Below, in pieces: positions 179 through 59,073 of a DNA stretch of 64,000 nucleotides. Under the pieces are notes generated by a model. It was not told the DNA's origin, ran no database searches, and was given only the letters and a program-made list of their open reading frames with translations. Position numbers and translations under genes: made by a program. Source of the stretch: Cruorifilaria tuberocauda (taxonomy: Eukaryota > Nematoda > Chromadorea > Rhabditida > Onchocercidae). Location of the stretch: positions 49,874-113,873 of the forward strand of contig JABVXU010000155.1 in NCBI GenBank assembly GCA_013365365.1, read 5' to 3'. How positions within the stretch are numbered: the first letter of the stretch is position 1; each line of letters starts with the position of its first letter.

Positions 179-3100
179 GAGCACGATAACAATTCGTGAT
201 ATAGTAGCAATTACTCAGTTTGTTATTGCTGCGTTATCACGATCTAAATCACCATTCTCTTCAATTTACCATGCTTTTTCGGCAACTCTTTTTGATGCTT
301 TTGGTACTTTATCAACATATATCAGTTTGGATCATGACGCCCTGAAGAAAGTGGCTATTGATGAAGTGGAATTTTCTTTATTTAACTTTTCACTCATTTG
401 TATTTTACAAAATTTGGAGTTAGTGAGAATTACTATTTACTTTCATATAGCTTAAAATTACTTCTGCGGATTACGTAAGAGTTATATAGGTTGATTCGAG
501 ATTACTTAATAAAATGAATGCCTTTTGGAAAATGTCTGTAACTTCATATTTGCAGCTCTGTTATATTATGCAACAGGAATTTGGTAGCATCTGTGATGCA
601 GCATCGCTTTTGTTAGCACCTACAATGCATTTCGATGAAAAAGATTCACATAGTCTTATTGTTGGGGATTTTCATATTCCTTTTGGGCGAGCTAAACGAT
701 TTATACCCAAAAATTTTACGCTAGATGCGCCAACGTGTAGGCAAAATATTTTCAGGTTTATTGTTGTTTACTTAGCAAATAAAAAGAAGATGCTGTATTT
801 ATTTTTTTTGGTCTGCTTTATTTTAAGATAGTCCAGTTATTCTCTTCCTTCACATACCATTTAATTAAAGTGAAACTATAAGCTTAAAATCATTAAAATC
901 GAATATTATGAATATGAATAATATAAAAGCATGAATAATTCGTGAAGATTCGCTACGATATTAAGACTTGTCAAAATAATTATATTGGATAGAAAAAATA
1001 ATCTTCATACATTTTCGATCTATATATGGATTGTATTAAAATCCCCTGAAGTACTATTGAAATTGCAACTTTTACATAGCAGAATGTTTATAGGCTTGTA
1101 CGTGGGCTTGCGGTTGATAAGCCAATATTGCTTGAAGGTCCTCCAGGTTGTGGCAAATCGAGCACTGTTGCTGCTTTGGCTGCTGTAACTGGCCATACCT
1201 TGACGAGATTAAATTTATCTGAACAAACGGTATTTCTTTATTGTTTTCCATCTTGTTTTTGTTTTCAACTATATTAGAAAACAAATCGTCCATTTTGTTT
1301 TTGTTTCAAACTATATTAGAAACAAATTTAAGTTTACATTATCCAAAGTTTTTCAAGGAATTGAAAATTATAATAACGAACATTATGCTTTGAATTTCAC
1401 AATTGTTCCAGGATTTGGCAGATCTCTTCGGTTGTGATGTGCCGGTCATTTTATCAGATGGTTCACCATCTTTCATGTGGAAAGATGGACCCATTCTGCA
1501 TGCAATCAAAACAGGCCAATGGGTTCTTCTAGATGAGGTGCAAAGATTTTAAACTGCTCAATGTTTACAACATGGCTTTTTCTCACTTACTGCATATTAA
1601 AGCACGCTTTCATCTTAATATTTTGTATCAAAAATCGAATAACTCTGGTTGTATATTTTTTAGGCATACATTACAAGTGGTACTTTTAAGAAGGAATGTA
1701 TAAATTACAAATGATATTTTATGAGATTTAAGAGTTATCTGAACTGGAATTGTAAATAACATAATTTCTTTCTGTATTATCTATTCCATATTTCATATCC
1801 AAAATGGCAGTTTATGAGATATCATCTTCCATACAGTGTTTGGTTATAGAATTTGAATATAGTGCTGTTTATAAGTTTAAATTAATAGGTTTAAGTTACA
1901 ATGTCGTAATATGTCGAAATGAATTCGTAATAAATTTGTTTAAGATGAATTTGGCATCCCAAAGTGTTTTGGAAGGTTTGAATGCATGTTTCGATCATCG
2001 TCACAATCTTTTCATACCAGAATTGAATCGAACTTTCGATATCGATGTGCATGACAAGAAAACACGTTTCTTTGCATGTCAGAATCCATGCAGTCACGGT
2101 GGTAATCGGCGCAAGCTACCAAAATCGTTTGTTAACCGCTTCACATCTGTATGTGCTCTTTTATATTCAAATACGAATTTCGAGATTTTATAATTTTTAA
2201 TTCTTTTAAAGCTGCTCATTAAATATGAAACTTTTAATATAATTAGAGTGTGACTATCTTCTTAATGTTGAAAAAGTGAGATTGATGATAACTCACGACG
2301 CGAGAATGCGTTGCGTTTGGAAGTCTCAATAGATGTTAATGCATTTACATTATTCATGTTCATTTAAGAGTAAATGAATCGATGATATGTAAATTTGGAA
2401 CAAGTAAGAAGTTTGCAGATTTACATAGCTGAAATGGATGCATCAGATTTTTTCGAAATTGTAAAAAGTTCATTTGGATCTATATTGGCTGATGATGTTA
2501 TCCAGCGTATGGTTAACGTGAATAGTTCAATAATAAATCTCATGGTAGAAGATTCAGAATTTCTGAGGATGGGATCACCATTTGAATTTAATTTGCGTGA
2601 TTTATTGAGATGGGCACAAATAACGGTTGAAGTAAGTTTTTTAATTGAAGTTCTACTTCTTAAGATTGTACTTTTCGAATTCCGATGGTTTAACCGAAAA
2701 TTTTTCGCTAAAAAAGTAAAAGATAATGCATATCGAATATATATGATCTTGCAATTAAATAGATGAGAGCAGTTTTTGGAAATGCCTAAGATATGATATC
2801 TTTTAATTTTTATTTTTTAATATCTTATGTTTGCAGAACAATGGCGATGTTGCATTTGGTTTTGATTTATTATATGTATGGAGATTACGTAATAATGTTG
2901 ATCGGCAAAAGGCGAGTTTAGCATCATCTATCCTTATGATTAATTTAAAAAATTGAACATGATTAATGCAAAGCATTAGTATTCTGATACAGACTCGTTC
3001 GTATGAAATCTGTAGTGAAACTCATTGGACCTATAGGATTTTGAGTTCCGTAAATTAATAATATGGATCTTCCCTTTTATTTTTTAATCTCTTATAAGCG

Positions 3101-18100: not shown

Positions 18101-21100
18101 TAATGATTATAACTGAATAACTGAGTAATTTTCGAAAAATGGTTGGGAGTACGAGTAAAAAAGGAAGGTAAAATTACTTAATTATCTAGTATCTAATTCG
18201 CCTGATTCCATCGGTATTTTCACTAGCTGTACTTTATTTTGCAGTGCAAAACTTACCAAATTTTAAATTAAACTTAAGTTTTATGAAGAATTGTTAACTT
18301 CTTGGTAATTATGATAATTAGTTTTTTGGTAGGGTTATGTAAATCCGATACCGAAACCTCAAAAAGAAGATAGTGGAAAAGATGGGGATGGACTGCAGTT
18401 GTGTGATGATGATGTCACTGGTTTGGGAGATGCGAAAGGTGAAAAAGATGTTGGCGATGATATTGATGAAACAGGACAGGTAAATTATTTGAAATTATTG
18501 TTAAGGGAAGGTAAAACATTGGTAATATGTGCTTATCTCTTCCTGTCCTCTTTTTCAAATAAAATTAAAATTATGGTTTTTTTAATTTAAATTTGATCTG
18601 ACCTAAGATTTCTGAATACTTTAAACATTATCAGTGTTTCCTTTTTTCAGGTTGAAGGTTTGAGAGGGGACGGCGGTGATGGAAATGAGGAACCAGACAA
18701 AAGTAAGGATGATAGTACACCGCTTGATATGGATGATGATTTTGGTGGGTGTCTAGAGGATATTGATCGGGAGCAACGCAACGGTTAGCGTTATTGCTTA
18801 CTTCTTATTATTAAGAAGTTAAAGAAACTAATTCGTTTGATCGTAAATCTTTCTGTCAAATAAACTTATTTTTCAGATAGTGAAGACAGTGATGAAAATG
18901 ATGAACCTGAAGCAGATATGGATATGGGAGATGTTGACCAAAGTGAAGCAGATAAATTGGACCCCGATTTATGGAATCAGAATGATGATAATGAGAAAGA
19001 ACTTACTGAAGGCAGCCAAGGTTTGATTTTTAACATTTTGATTCAAGTAAGAAAAATCAGTAGAGTCATCTTATTCTTCTTTTCAATTATAGTTTGAATA
19101 GAAACAGGAAAATTAAAGATTTTCTCTTTCAGAAAAATAATGAAAGTTTGATTGAAAGGCGGAAGATTATGTCAGGTTCATTCATTTAGTGAATTATCCA
19201 ATTGGTGAACAATAAATTTAGCAGTGAGACGATCAAAAGTCACGTTTATCTATGTTTTCAAGTTGTTGACCTGATTTGTGATATTCTGTTTCAGGTGCAT
19301 ATAAAGAAACGGATGATATGGTTGCAGATAACAATAAACAAAATTCTAAAAATAAAGATAATAAAAAGGCATGCGACAATGATGTTGATAAAGATAATAA
19401 AGATGATACTGATGACGATCATATGGAGAATATGGACGAGAGTGAACCGTTGAATAATGATGTAGACAGTGAATGTTCTGCTCAAATTGATGAACACTGT
19501 AGTGATGGTAATGATAATGAAAATAAGTCAGAAGGCGGCGACCTGGACCATCTAATGAATGATAAATTAGATGAAGATAATAACGAATCGGATAGTAATG
19601 TTGGAGAAGAAATGGTAACAGAAATGACTGAAAAGGATGAAGAGAAAATGTCTGAAGATTTCTTGGTATTCATTTACTGTGATATTTAGGACTTCTCTGA
19701 GTCCTTAAATAATGTTTAAAAAATGCAATTAGATAATAGTAACACTTATCAATTTTTGGTACTTTTCTTGAAATTATTGGCATGAACAATTACATTTCTT
19801 TTAGTCTTTCCATAGTTGGTAGTTTTGATTATCTGATTTTCGATATGCTATTTGATGACCATATATAAAATTTAACTATCAATAAAATTTTACTTATGTG
19901 CTTTATATTTGGTCATTAACTGTGTCAATATTGTTCATTATTTGTTCACTTTTAGCACGAAACAAATGATGCTGGTATTGAACAGTTAAACAAGGACGAT
20001 GATGAAATTCTCAAAGGCAGTGCAACAGGAATGAATAAAGGAACAGCAGAAGATACCATGGATACTGTCTCAATTCCGAATGTCGTTCATGAGAATGATG
20101 AAAATATCGAAAAGACGTATGATGTTTTTAAAAAATAAATATTAAAAATTAAAGATGGAGATAATTAGATGTAATTATGATGGTATATTTCTGTAGTGAT
20201 TCGACAGCGGAAGTAGAAGGCAAAGGAAAAGATGGTTGTAGCGAAATGGAAGACGGTGGCATTGGGAATGAAAAATTAGGAAATATGAAAAAAGATGACA
20301 AAAAATCCGAAAAAGAGAAGGAACTGGTTGATGACATCACTGACTTTGCCGTACAAGAAAATCTTCCAAGTTAATCTTTAAACAAGTTTCTGATTTTTTC
20401 GTTTCTATCAATTTGTTAATCGGCTTTCCCTTTTTGTGATTCCCCCTTCTCACTTAAACTTTTTCGACAAACAGCCAGGTTATCTGTTTGTTCAGTAATT
20501 AACTTGCACTTTGAAGGTGAAAGTGAACAAAAAGCTGAAGAAGGCCCCGAATTTGGACATATTGATGGAAACAGCAACAGTTTACACGAACAAATAGTTA
20601 TCGATAAAAGTTCGGTAGAGGAAGCGAGGAATTCAAAAGGAAATAGAGACCAGTTAAGCGATTTGAAGAATACAAATGTAGAGCAGGTATCTTTTCAATA
20701 TATTCTCTGATAATGTCTAGTACGGAAAATTCCATTTTGATTTTTTAAGCCATTCGAATTTAAGTGCTTTTTTTCAAATCGCTAACATATTCTTAAATCA
20801 ATTAAAAAAATTATTTGTAGTGGTATCAGTAACAATAAGAGTGATTGTGCAACAAATAACAGTAGTAAATTTTAATTTACTGCACTGTTTAGTAGGTGAC
20901 ATTTTGTAGAATGATGAAGAAATAATGGAAGATGATGGTACTCGAGATAAGCAAGAAGTTAACGGGAATGATTTAACCGAAACTAATGTTTCCAATTATC
21001 AAAACTCTGTTATTCATTCGGCACCAGATTTTTATGGTTTGGTAAAGGCTTTTTTATGTTTCGAAATCGAATTAAATTAAAACCATCTCTGTTGTTTTAA

Positions 21101-49261: not shown

Positions 49262-50567
49262 ATGCTTCTGAGCGGTTGTTTCACCTTTCTCCTGTCAAAT
49301 TCCGTCATTTTCCCGGTTGTGCGGTCATTGAAACAGTGTGGCAATGAACATTTTCAACTATTGTGTTCCGAGAGGGCAATGTGTGTTGCGATACGAAGCA
49401 CAGAGTTACTCATTTGATTGCTTAATTAAATAAATTACTGATTTGAAATTAAGAAAACAGAACGCCTATCTTTAGCTTTTCAAGTCTTGAGCTTAGCTTA
49501 GTTTGAATAAGTGCAGCATTTTAGATGGATTCGGATGTAAGTCATCGATCGTATTAGCTCAACTCTTTCTACTTTAGATCTCAGTTATCTAACTTATTTT
49601 ATTGTGCAAAATTTTTTCTTCAAAATTAATTCTTCCTCTAAAATATTTCATGCAAAAAGCTTTTGCATAAGATCATTAGCGATTTCTTTGATTTTAATGA
49701 TTAAAAGAGTAGGAAGGAAGATCTCAATTATTAAAAGAATGACAATCGTTCTTTGAAATATAAATAGAATTATTTGAATTAAATTAAATTTTATTCGGAA
49801 GTAAAATATATAATTCTTTTTTTTGGCCACACAAAGTACGGTTCAGTTTTCATTGTGATACGAAAGGTTGGTGTAAACGGAAATGTCCAAGACTACCTTT
49901 AAATCGAGAATGGTGCCTACTGCGTAATCTAACTCATGATATCAAATGCTGTTTACGTGATCGTTGCAACTGGGAGGAAACGCCACTTTTCGCTATCATT
50001 GTCAGTTTATTTCCGTAGATAGACCGGAATGATAAGCTAATTTGAAATAATGATTCCTTATTTTCTTGCTCAAACTTCCTTTTATTATCTAGCAGCTAAA
50101 GAGAACTAAAGTTCCTACACTTATTTAGAATATTTGGAATTAAATTTTATCCTTTAAGCAAATGAAAGCATAACTATTTTCAAATTTTAAGTGATTGTTA
50201 TCTTCTTTTCGATATTTGTTATTTTTGTCAGTTAATTTCATGTTTCAAAAAACCTGAATTTCTGAAAAATGTATGTTCATCTCAAACTAGGTTTTACTTG
50301 ACCTTGTTTCGAAGTGTTGGAGGAGAATCAATCAACCAACGGTTTTTGTTTCAGAAAAAAGAATTCAGGTTTGTGCCAGGTCTGGAAATCCTAGCTCGTT
50401 TGCTAACGCCATTTCTTCTATTAATTTCCATCATTTATCCGATAGTATCAACAATAAGTTGTGAACGAACAGTTTCGAAACACAGAGTTGAATACAATCC
50501 AACGGTCGATTCGGAGCTAACGCAGAAAGAAGGACTGATATTCAAAGATGCAGCACCGGTAGCTTAA
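49262..50567 (+). other. Alternative short reading: membrane-anchored three-finger protein (about 170 aa)
   Basis: If the donor at 50559 is skipped, exon 3 continues two codons past it and stops at TAA 50565-50567. The product would be a signal peptide, a ten-cysteine three-finger domain, a membrane span and a cytoplasmic tail of roughly 40 residues ending KDAAPVA. This is a complete, sensible protein in itself, comparable to nematode Ly6-like surface proteins, although those are more often GPI-anchored. It could be the only product, or a short isoform of the fused gene. Confidence 0.5.
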
Positions 50568-53244
50568 ATCAAATTGCTCATAATTTCTAAAATTCTTAGG
50601 TAAAAGATATCACAAAAAAAATTATGCAAAAGAATAATCATAATGGTACGTTCACATTAATTAGGAATAAAAGGATTTTTAATTAACAACAAAATGCGTT
50701 TTTTGATGTTGATTTCTCGAAATGCATATAAGGAACTTATAGAAACTTGGCGAACCACTCGATGGCTGTCTAAATATTGATGAATTTGCTGAAGTTATGA
50801 GAGCATTGGCTGAATACAAAGGTAATGAGAAGGAACCGATAATTAAAACACCTGTAGAAGCTATCACTTACGTGAGCTATGAAACTCACGAATCATTAGG
50901 CTTTGATTATGCTGTGGTAAGTCTTTCTCAAGTTTTGGGATTATTTCTTGAATTGATCACTTGATGAAAACTTACTACCTTTCCAAATCATATGGCATTT
51001 GGAGGTGTAGTTAGAAATCAAAGAGAGTAGGTTAATAAAAAAGTAATGAGGTTACTACGATATCAAAGCAATTGCGAGGAAAGCTGGACGGAAAAAAAAC
51101 AAAGTTTTACTATCGTATTATCAGGAAATTTGCCAACTGGCATGAGTTTCATTTTTTGTCACAATTGGAAACTAAAATTGATTTTCTGTTCATTTAGATC
51201 ACACGTAAAGAGCCAACTAAATTTGAAAGTCTTCTAATTCGTATGATTGAACAAGGACCAGGATTCTTCGACATTGATGGAACAGAGTTATACGAAGTCT
51301 TATTGGAGGTAAAATTTTTTTACTGCCAGATTTTCAAATAGCAAAATATTTTGCTATTAAGCTTAGTTTGCAATGAATCAATTTCTAAATTACTCATCAG
51401 ATTATGAAAGTAATTTCGGATTTTTTATTGGCGCGTGAAATTAATACATGTTTTTTTACAGCTAAGTGAAATTTTACGTGCAGAAAATTCGCTTCTCGAA
51501 ATATCAGCCGATGTAGTCGTTATCGGTGAAATCCGTGGACGGTCAGTTCTTCATTTCATCTCAGCAGTAAATCAAACAACGTCCATTTATAAATTCAAAC
51601 ATACCGATGATAGGACAGGTTGAATTTCCATGCGATAATGCCATTTAATTGAATAATGTTTTTAACTTGTTGCAGATACTCTGATCTATTACGTTGGTTC
51701 CAATTGTATGGTTATCCACCAAAACGTCGATATCTTTTTCTTGGAGGTATTATTGATCAGGAATGTGCTGAATCCATTGAAACACTTGCTTTCCTAGCTG
51801 CATATAAAGTGTGTTTTGAAATTTTTATGCTAAATTTGTTGCTATCCAGAGAATTTCAAATAGAACTCTTACAAGGATTTGAGATCTTTTCTTTCTTTAA
51901 GCAATATTTTGATTATCTTATATACCAATGTATAGGAGCAATTAATATCAAACCTTTATTCGGGTTATTAAATAAGAGGTTATTATCGATTAATCAAGAG
52001 AAAACTTTGAATAACCTCAGATAGTTCTAGTTTTCGACTTGAGAATTTGCAGGTAACAACACCAAATCATATCTACATGATACGTGGAGCAACGGAACTT
52101 TTCCCTTTCCAAGTCCGGAAGCGTTTTCCGGCAAAGCTAAGTATATTGTTATCAGCTTTTATCACACGAATCTGCTCTGAAATGCCTGTGGCTGCAACGA
52201 TTGGCAATACAATTTTTGCCGTACATTCCGGTATCAGTCCGAGAGTTCGTATGAATTTCTATAAAACTTTTCTTTGTGATTTTTTATAGAATCCCTAGAA
52301 AAACAAGCATGCATATTGAAAAGCAATGGATGGCATAAAGTAAAATTGAAGCATAAAGAAATTCCAAAAGAAAACTTTCAGCTTAAAAATTTGGAGACAA
52401 TAAAGAAAATTGAAAGGCCACCAGTAAAATGGAATTGTGGAATTATTTATGATTTGATACTAGGAATGCCGACTACTTCCATTGAAACATTTCAAAAAAT
52501 CAAAGGTTAGCAAATCTATAATCTGAAAAAAGTTACAATAATTAATTGATTTTTCATATGCCCTAAATTATAGCCAGTGATATTATCACTGATATTAGCG
52601 GAAATAAGCTAAGTTTCGATGCGATACTAAAACATGAAAATTTCTACTTACTCAAGCATTTTGATCATTTTCACTACCGAAGAGTGCAGTGATTCAGTGA
52701 TTCAAGTAAACGACGTGATAAAGTAATTGCTTTTCACCTAGTTACTTGATATCAAAGTAGACAAGATCAAATACCATTATCAGCGTGGGTTTCTTTCAAA
52801 CATTAATACTTTTTGAAATCTCCGTTCCAAAAGCGATATAGTCCTAGATGAAATTTCGAAATTTCTTTTCCATCAAAATCCAACATTTCATTCATATTAG
52901 GTGGCCGAGCTCATCTCTTTGGTGCGAAAGCAATCGAAGAATTTCTAACACGATTGCAAATGAAGTTAATTATACGTACGCATACGCCATATGAAAAGGG
53001 TCATTTTACGTTTGCATCTAAGCAATTACTCTCCATTTGGTCCAGTAATTGCAATAATGTCCAACTTGCAACCAGCTTATATATTGATCATGAATTACAC
53101 GTCAGCGTACATTGCATGACGCCCGTAGTTATAAAAACCGTTACTGTTCGACAAATAATAAGTACGCCATCAGAAGTGGAAATTGTGGAAGTAGAAGAGA
53201 GAAGCAAATGTGAAGAAATTCAAGGATATCAAGAAAAAGTCTGA
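49262..53244 (+). CDS. Predicted receptor-like protein: three-finger ectodomain, one membrane span, PP1-like pseudophosphatase domain
   Basis: Ten exons (49262-49404, 49847-50000, 50355-50558, 50743-50916, 51198-51308, 51462-51541, 51676-51808, 52053-52248, 52290-52505, 52901-53244) join in phase to 584 residues. Residues 1-21 are a signal peptide (MLLSGCFTFLLS). About 25-92 hold ten cysteines ending IKCCLRDRCN, the CCxxDxCN end of Ly6/activin-receptor three-finger domains. About 109-131 form a membrane span (LARLLTPFLLLISIIYPIV). From about 230 the sequence aligns along the PP1 fold: SDLLRWFQLYGYPP, RYLFLGGIIDQ, IETLAFLAAYK, MPVAATIGNTIFAVHSGISP. Catalytic motifs are altered: GDIHG is GEIRG, GDYVDRG is GGIIDQE, RGNHE is RGATE. 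If exon 3 is not spliced at 50559, translation stops at 50565-50567 and the product is a 170-residue membrane-anchored three-finger protein. The phosphatase part would then be a separate downstream gene starting near 50743 or 50797. The GTAGCT donor at 50559 is weak, so the fusion is inference; the individual domains are clear. Confidence 0.65.
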
Positions 53245-57069: not shown

Positions 57070-59073
57070 ATGACGCATGAAAACAGTAAAACTGAGGACA
57101 GCATTGCAATGATCTGTATTGTCACGGTAAGTTTTTCATCAAATAAATTAATTCGTGATTTTAAATAAAGAAAGGTAGGTGGTCAGCCGAGGATCATAGA
57201 AAGCTATTTCCATGATATCTTCTTCCAGCAGATACAGTTAAAAATATAAGTATTTCAAAGATAAAGGAAGCACTGATATTTAATTGCCGTACAAGTCCAC
57301 TGTTACGATTCCGTTTATGAAAATAGAGATTGCAAGAATTGCTATCAGTTATTCCGTATTCACATTTTGACGTTGATCATAGGTAGCACTGTTTGGATTG
57401 ATCAGTAATGGCATATCCCTGTACTTGACACGTACGAGGTATCGATTTCGGAACGCATTTGGAGTTTTATGCAGCAGCTTTCTGATCTGTAACTTGCAAG
57501 CTATATCTATTCTCCTGATATGGTGTACCATTGTTATAAACATGTAAATTTTATCTGTTCCAAGAAGAAACTTTTCCTGCTTTTTCATTTTCTTTTTTGC
57601 TTTTTGCTTAATTTGACGAATTAAATTTCAGAAAATCTTATGCATTATCATCTCGAACACTTTTTGTTGTACGACTCATAGGCGTACTAGTAAATGGAGC
57701 ATGGTTTGGATCGGTTTCAGCGCACTTTTTCACCGCCGTTAACAGATTTTATGCTTTCGCATATGCAATCAAATATGATCAGTTCTGGTCCGAATCAAAA
57801 GCTTTATTCATTGGGATCAGCTCATGGACATTTGGTTTACTCTTTTCCACCCAACACTTGTACAGTAAGTTTAGAATGAAACTATTGCAAATTGCCTTAC
57901 TTCCAAAAGAGGAAACGATCATCGAAAAGTAAGATTCCGACACCATTAAGCGTGTTAATCAGAGTAATTCATTCATGGTAATTTCAACCTTGCGTTAATT
58001 AAATGTTGTCAAGTGTCAGTAGTGTGATTCTGCTTACGAACAATGTGATATGCAAGCTTAAATCGAATTTCATCTTGCAGAATATCAGAAAATCATTCCT
58101 TCATTCATATATGTTTATTTTGCTAATTTGCAATTGCATTTTAAAATTAATGAAATCCTCTATCTGCAGAAGAATGTTCATTTGTGTTTAATGAAAATTC
58201 GAATTATCGATTTTCTTATCAAGATTCTTTCTACGGTAGAATTTGTACTTATGCTGATACCTCAGTAACAATAGCACTAGTAACGGGAATGGCATGCATC
58301 GATTTTTCTACTTTAATCAGAATAATTGCATATCGCAGGGTAAGTTCATTTCTGATAAATGATTATATTGGTAATTAATTTCAAATGTTATCACTCATTA
58401 ATTAGCACTGAAGTGAAGTTGCTGAAAACATTTCTTCAAATGCATTTCAGGCAATGCGAAGGAATGTTTCAACAGTTAGTAATACTGTCTATGACAAAGA
58501 AGTGTTGTGCTTCAAGCAGGTGCTAATATCAATTTGAAGTTAGAAAAAGATGAAATTAACAAAGCTTAGATAAATTCAGAATTTCTCTATAATCAATGCT
58601 AATGTTTCTCAGATAATTAATGAAGTTAATTATGCATGATATCCTCAAAATATATTGAAATTGGAATCTTTAGTCGTGCATACTTGGCCTACTATATATC
58701 TCATGCGCCGCAATATTCAATATTACTCCATATTTATTCACCTATAAATGGCTTCTATTTGCTTCTAGTACAATAACATGGATTCTGACACAATCGTTGG
58801 ACGGGTAAGAATGGATTATTTATTAGCTGTGTTAGTGTAAGTCTAATTTGAACATTTCCGGTAATTTCTTGGATTCCGCTTCTCCATCTGATTGCAATTT
58901 TACTCTTCAGACTCTTTATCTTTTTTAAAATAAATTTTATATATTCAATGATTGCTAAAAAGTTACTTTATTGGGATTTTAGGTTAATCTTTCTGATTTT
59001 CAATCGTACCATCATCTGCAAGACAGATTTCAATCCGGTGACAATAGCGCCAACCACGAACTTGAATGAATAG
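57070..59073 (+). CDS. Seven-transmembrane chemoreceptor-like GPCR (SRX-like family)
   Basis: Seven exons (57070-57126, 57383-57543, 57632-57864, 58170-58339, 58451-58519, 58674-58804, 58983-59073) join in phase to 303 residues, MTHENSKTED to TTNLNE. Seven hydrophobic segments are visible. TM1 is IAMICIVTVALFGLISNG, followed by RYRFRNAFGVLCSSFLICN, like the SRX first loop and TM2. TM3 ends AVNRFYAF, the NR equivalent of the DRY motif. An extracellular ECSFVFNE precedes TM5. KEVLCFKQSCILGLL leads into TM6. TM7 reads TWILTQSLDGLIFLIFN, close to the SRX TM7 pattern. Such receptors act at the plasma membrane of sensory neurons, coupling an unknown ligand to G proteins. Assignment to SRX rather than the related SRSX/SRW groups is from remembered motifs and should be taken as family-level only. 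Confidence 0.8.

Follow-up and report, generated by a model that had tools for sequence, protein, structure and literature searches.

A putative nematode membrane protein joining a cysteine-rich, likely three-finger ectodomain to a PP1-like pseudophosphatase domain

A locus of the filarial nematode Cruorifilaria tuberocauda raised the question of whether one gene joins a three-finger ectodomain, through a single membrane span, to a phosphatase-like domain of the PP1 fold, or whether two adjacent genes had been read as one. The window (the whole stretch of DNA analyzed, 64,000 nucleotides) belongs to an assembly of 71.7 Mb in 1108 contigs (ca. 31% GC). The original prediction featured ten exons joined in phase across 49262-53244 to give a frame of 584 residues, and joining these exons reproduced that frame. 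One junction of this model did not survive comparison with homologues, however. The exon 8/9 junction at 52248|52290 created a 32-residue stretch (VQSLEKQ...ENFQ) that was absent from all 11 aligned homologues, and the junction was therefore moved to 52244|52382, the position that the homologues support. Both sides of the new junction are in phase 0, the sequence reads HSGISPR|LKNLE as it does in the homologues, and the extra stretch is gone. The corrected model has 552 residues; Brugia malayi Bm5190 has 551 and the Elaeophora protein has 552. The remaining junctions of the model are consistent with the Brugia protein. The features of the corrected model are collected in Table 1.

Table 1. Exons of the corrected model and the questioned intron, in window coordinates.
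Feature	Position	Strand	Content and basis
Exon 1	49262..49404	+	Start codon, signal-like hydrophobic stretch, ectodomain cysteines 1-3; supported by phase and by homologues (Brugia P0001 1-48 at 69%)
Exon 2	49847..50000	+	Remaining seven ectodomain cysteines, NLT sequon, CCLRDRCN; Brugia 49-98 at 84%
Exon 3	50355..50558	+	Juxtamembrane part, then hydrophobic span LLTPFLLLISIIYPIVSTI and first part of cytosolic linker; mean hydropathy 2.16, Brugia 96-169 at 57%
Intron 3 (questioned junction)	50559..50742	+	GTAGCT donor, TTATAG acceptor; final three bases are an in-frame TAG
Exon 4	50743..50916	+	Linker KLGEPLDGCLNIDEFAEVM..., conserved ahead of the first Met at 50797
Exon 5	51198..51308	+	Start of PP1-like domain KFESLLIRMIEQGPGFF; invariant columns in 12-row alignment
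Exon 6	51462..51541	+	GEIRGR in place of GDIHGQ
Exon 7	51676..51808	+	YSDLLRWFQLYGYPPKRRYLFLGGIIDQE in place of ...LGDYVDRG; Brugia identity 98%
Exon 8	52053..52244	+	RGATE replaces RGNHE, VHSG replaces HGG; earlier model ended at 52248; homologue alignment
Exon 9	52382..52505	+	LKNLETIKKIERPP...; start corrected from 52290; homologue alignment
Exon 10	52901..53244	+	Last part of PP1-like domain, acidic tail at the C-terminus, stop codon

When the Brugia protein was used as a tblastn query, nine ordered pieces spanning all ten exons were returned at 44-98% identity; the 44% piece reads through intron 5. Exon 2, searched against the assembly, matched only itself among the best-scoring candidates. 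The PP1 half, likewise among the best-scoring candidates and with the uncorrected exon 8/9 junction, matched this locus at 1.5e-70 and the next at 3.5e-11. The locus is missing from the 49 exon-level PF00149 matches in the assembly, and its domain was detectable only after exon joining. The uncorrected junction was also used in the PF00149 scan, the PDB search with the phosphatase-like domain, and the database protein search, in which the best matches of the locus were to filarial nematodes.

Two other features of the window were recorded in passing. A probable midasin gene contributes a Midasin AAA lid domain (PF17867, E 5e-11) at 2395-2763 (+). A very acidic open frame rich in Asp, Asn and Glu, with no Pfam match, is found at 19318-19689 (+); it may belong to that midasin gene, as its acidic region.

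The junction between exons 3 and 4 (50558|50743) is the point at which the two halves of the protein meet. The GTAGCT donor at 50559 had been named as the weak point of the model. Scored against a nematode-like consensus that we assumed as a yardstick, the donor (CCG|GTAGCT at 50558) has six of ten consensus bases, inside the 4-8 range of the gene's own nine donors; it is not exceptionally weak. The junction is in phase 0, and the homologues have continuous residues across it. Immediately upstream of exon 4 stands the in-frame TAG that is part of its acceptor, and the first in-frame Met is found 54 bases into the exon. Five residues before this Met (L173, D174, G175, L177 and E181) are invariant in 12 of 12 aligned rows. 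Because exon 4 is closed by the TAG and carries conserved residues ahead of its Met, it must be joined to coding sequence further upstream; exon 3 has the matching phase and supplies residues as in the homologues.

The signal peptide and single membrane span of the original prediction were recovered as an N-terminal hydrophobic stretch and one strong hydropathy peak. The former, at residues 2-20, is signal-like; the latter covers residues 115-133 (Kyte-Doolittle mean 2.16). A weaker peak (residues 362-380; 1.43) falls inside the PP1 domain. The product appears to be a type I single-pass membrane protein with its ectodomain outside and its PP1-like domain in the cytosol.

The ectodomain comprises ca. 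73 residues with ten cysteines and ends in CCxx[D/N]xCN. Eight of the ten available ectodomains were aligned; those of Wuchereria P0004 (extra model residues) and Dirofilaria P0014 (first ca. 100 residues similar to P0005) were left out. The ten cysteines and the Asn of the terminal motif were invariant in all eight, and none lacked an N-glycosylation sequon, as would suit a position outside the cell. No family reached the cut-off when the eight were scanned against Pfam. Below the cut-off, six families were matched: Activin_recp (three of eight; best E 0.15), Toxin_TOLIP and UPAR_LY6 (two of eight each), FBP_C, PHF5 and Dickkopf_N; we take the first three of these to form one three-finger clan. 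The reversed alignment, scanned as a control, matched one family, CsrA. A PDB sequence search that admitted E-values up to 10 returned 18 distinct matches, 16 of which were long neurotoxins or CD59 (best E 0.2), with the CD59 rows covering 15 positions only. The reversed alignment, having the same cysteine content, returned four matches (best E 0.29), none of them three-finger proteins; thus, the kind of match is informative, and the E-value is not. Fold comparison of structure models gave no fold match to the ectodomain, the models being of low confidence (pLDDT 35 and 51). Of the three-finger assignment made originally, the ten-cysteine pattern was found throughout the alignment, but no profile or fold match was significant. 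A three-finger fold is likely, as judged from the cysteine pattern and the kind of PDB match.

The PP1-like domain was placed with significance, as had been predicted. PF00149 (Metallophos) matched the joined exons, with the uncorrected exon 8/9 junction, at E 8.9e-11 (43 bits; cut-off 21.5), and Brugia P0001 scored 46.1 bits against the same family. No kinase family was found in Pfam scans of the protein, which returned PF00149 instead. With the same uncorrected junction, a phmmer search of the PDB gave FAP15 as the best match (E 6.4e-34), and solved PP1 structures followed at ca. 1e-31. Residues were counted over 15 sequences (the model and 14 relatives), or over fewer where a position was uncovered; PP1 numbering was taken from P0012, a PP1-like database sequence, and the catalytic and metal-ligand roles are those that we presume for PP1. 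The claim of a pseudophosphatase was borne out by active-site substitutions in all 15 aligned sequences: His66 is replaced by Arg and His125 by Thr in 15 of 15, and Asp92 by Gly in 14 of 14. Arg96 is also lost (14/14), and Asn124 has become Ala, Val or Ser (15/15). Asp95 (14/14), His173 (13/14) and His248 (9/12) are kept; Asp64 is kept in four of the 15, with Glu in the other 11. The signature of active PPPs (GDxHG, GDxVDRG, GNHE) is absent, and the domain looks catalytically dead across the family. These losses are fixed or nearly so, while the domain as a whole is well conserved (exon 7 is 98% identical to Brugia), a pattern expected for a pseudoenzyme under selection. Most simply, they would date from the common ancestor of the family and have been maintained by constraint.

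We took the RVxF-pocket positions to be I169, L243, F257, L289, C291 and F293. I169 and L243 are kept wherever covered, and the family has Thr, Met or Leu for F257 and Val, Leu or Ile for F293. F257 and F293 are also replaced in the intact relatives P0013 and P0018, so these changes argue only mildly against the recruitment of ordinary PP1 regulators. Catalytically intact relatives were noted in Steinernema (P0018) and Parascaris (P0019). Steinernema P0018, an intact PPP of 508 residues, has an N-terminal hydrophobic stretch and lacks the ectodomain; it is possibly a membrane-anchored active relative.

The pairing of the two domains recurs in other nematodes. The order ectodomain-span-PP1 was found in seven of the 14 database relatives (Brugia, Elaeophora, Setaria, Dirofilaria, Thelazia, Ascaris and Gnathostoma); Thelazia, Ascaris and Gnathostoma represent three infraorders of Spirurina (Spiruromorpha, Ascaridomorpha and Gnathostomatomorpha). 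The proposal of a new architecture is supported in its domain order, with the three-finger part likely. The conserved order is read from database models. In the Gnathostoma model, the PP1 part is cut short, and no N-terminal hydrophobic peak was seen at a threshold of 1.3. Identity to the corrected model was 78% for Elaeophora, 77% for Brugia, 72% for Setaria, 68% for Dirofilaria and 62% for Thelazia, and 38-39% over the aligned parts for Ascaris and Gnathostoma. Among the other seven relatives, five models begin late: those of Acanthocheilonema, Cercopithifilaria, Toxocara and Parascaris start just ahead of the span, at it or within it, and that of Onchocerca ochengi starts after it. The Gongylonema entry is a fragment, and Wuchereria P0004 has ectodomain and PP1 parts without a span. 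The partial order in these seven may reflect either poor annotation or real isoforms. The family proteins are publicly databased, mostly under generic phosphatase names.

Two of the database models call for separate comment. The C-terminal part of Setaria P0003 matches, in several pieces, an Srx-type 7TM chemoreceptor-like gene at 57633-59070 (+) of the window, in which 57633-57869 (+) matches PF10328 (E 1.2e-8); in the Setaria model, a GPCR appears to have been wrongly merged with the pseudophosphatase. A second fragment resembling the GPCR part of that model is located at 61345-61262 (-) (E 4.6e-9). Dirofilaria P0014 (131 residues) agrees with P0005 over its first ca. 100 residues and then carries a variant of the exon 4 sequence, matching 49262-50000 and 50791-50874 of the window; this points to duplication of an exon or of part of a gene in Dirofilaria.

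We consider it fairly probable that the locus is one gene for a 552-residue membrane protein comprising a signal peptide, the ectodomain, a span, a linker of ca. 100 residues and a non-catalysing PP1-fold domain that docks partners. In such a protein, the ectodomain would bind a ligand or a partner receptor outside the cell. The dead PP1 domain below the membrane would serve as a platform on which a phosphoprotein, or a phosphatase or kinase partner, docks, to be shielded or positioned there. Ligand binding could then alter local phosphorylation although the protein itself is inactive. The role suggested originally, that of a decoy or scaffold receptor acting to recruit phosphatase partners or to compete with receptor kinases, is a plausible hypothesis.

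The gene may produce more than one protein. Besides the full receptor, skipping of exon 3 would yield a soluble form and retention of intron 3 a truncated receptor. We rate this as unlikely, and rate equally low the corollary that the dead phosphatase would act away from the membrane as well. Exon 3 (204 nt) is of phase 0-0, such that skipping it in frame leaves an open frame of 484 residues, and retention of intron 3 adds two more codons and then a stop, giving a 169-residue membrane protein without the phosphatase. The span is absent from Wuchereria P0004 (503 residues) and Dirofilaria P0014, and soluble isoforms are possible on the strength of these entries. Against this reading, both span-less relatives are known as database models only, and phase 0-0 exons are common.

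The TGF-beta/activin receptors and the pseudoreceptor BAMBI have a small cysteine-rich three-finger ectodomain, a single span and an intracellular part. The protein could be a decoy of that pathway, as BAMBI is, whose ectodomain binds TGF-beta-family ligands or receptors and whose dead PP1 domain denies PP1 access to type I receptors or Smads; this seems improbable to us. The ten-cysteine domain and single span would suit such a decoy, and Activin_recp is the Pfam family weakly matched by more members than any other. However, the snake toxin (two of eight; best E 0.046), Ly6 (two of eight; 0.28) and unrelated FBP_C (one of eight; 0.0092, the lowest of any ectodomain match) families match as well or better, and no ectodomain match reached the Pfam cut-off, so that the relation to Activin_recp is not significant. 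The intracellular part of the TGF-beta/activin receptors is a kinase, whereas here it is a dead phosphatase.

The alternative held open originally, of two adjacent genes, is now weak, and we regard it as quite improbable. Under it, a three-finger membrane protein would end at the TAA that follows GTAGCT, a PP1-like gene would begin at exon 4, and gene finders would have merged the two. The donor does stand six bases ahead of a stop, the unspliced frame is complete at 169 residues, and the Setaria P0003 model demonstrates that neighbours can be merged, its GPCR part being a separate locus here (57.6-59.1 kb). Opposed to this are the TAG directly before exon 4, which leaves no in-frame start upstream of that exon, and the conserved residues ahead of its first Met. 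Further, the distant Ascaris and Gnathostoma proteins retain the joined order and the LDG motif, and the span is joined to PP1 in the Acanthocheilonema, Cercopithifilaria and Toxocara models. Finally, a profile search for a stand-alone ectodomain-plus-span protein among 1274 candidates of 0.55-1.75 times the profile length yielded none; the sole match, Dirofilaria P0014, has the ectodomain without the span. A decaying pseudogene or relic, to which the lost catalytic residues might point, is barely credible given related sequences in 14 other species, in which the substituted residues are themselves conserved, and the 62-78% identity of the model to the Brugia, Elaeophora, Setaria, Dirofilaria and Thelazia proteins.

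The favored single-gene membrane protein may be compared with known systems. Its intracellular domain resembles the PP1 catalytic subunit (PF00149) in sequence and matches FAP15 and PP1 alpha, beta and gamma chains, but His66, Asp92, Arg96, Asn124, His125 and Tyr272 are replaced, and a span and an ectodomain are attached. Kinase and tyrosine-phosphatase domains are familiar parts of receptors, and receptor-type protein tyrosine phosphatases carry inactive D2 domains inside the cell. The latter are alike in being receptors with a dead phosphatase-fold domain inside, but their cysteine-based fold is unrelated to that of the PPPs. No receptor that uses the PPP Ser/Thr phosphatase fold is known to us. 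A literature search (Bm5190, nematode PP1 pseudophosphatases, three-finger plus PP1, receptor-like PPP), with a scope mostly outside subscription papers, found no receptor-type PPP protein.

Dead PPP domains as such have precedents. The apicomplexan PfPPP8 has GNLINRG for GDXXDRG and is called the first experimentally characterised PPP-type pseudophosphatase (PMC10317984, 2023), by which account the class is a young one. Kinetoplastid PPPs with substituted catalytic residues may be substrate traps or scaffolds (PMC2175518, PMC2994645), roles that were proposed for them as pseudophosphatases (PMC2994645). These proteins belong to other phyla, and the portions of the papers drawn on here describe no ectodomain-span architecture for them; the words "transmembrane" and "signal peptide" are absent from the main text of PMC10317984.

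The chances seem about even that Spirurina possess a class of receptor-type PPP pseudophosphatases of their own, i.e. three-finger receptors at the surface with a dead PP1 output that captures or shields phosphoproteins, following a phosphatase-fold instead of a kinase logic. A conserved surface protein of this kind, so far seen only in a clade of parasitic worms, would give a handle on signaling through a dead PP1.
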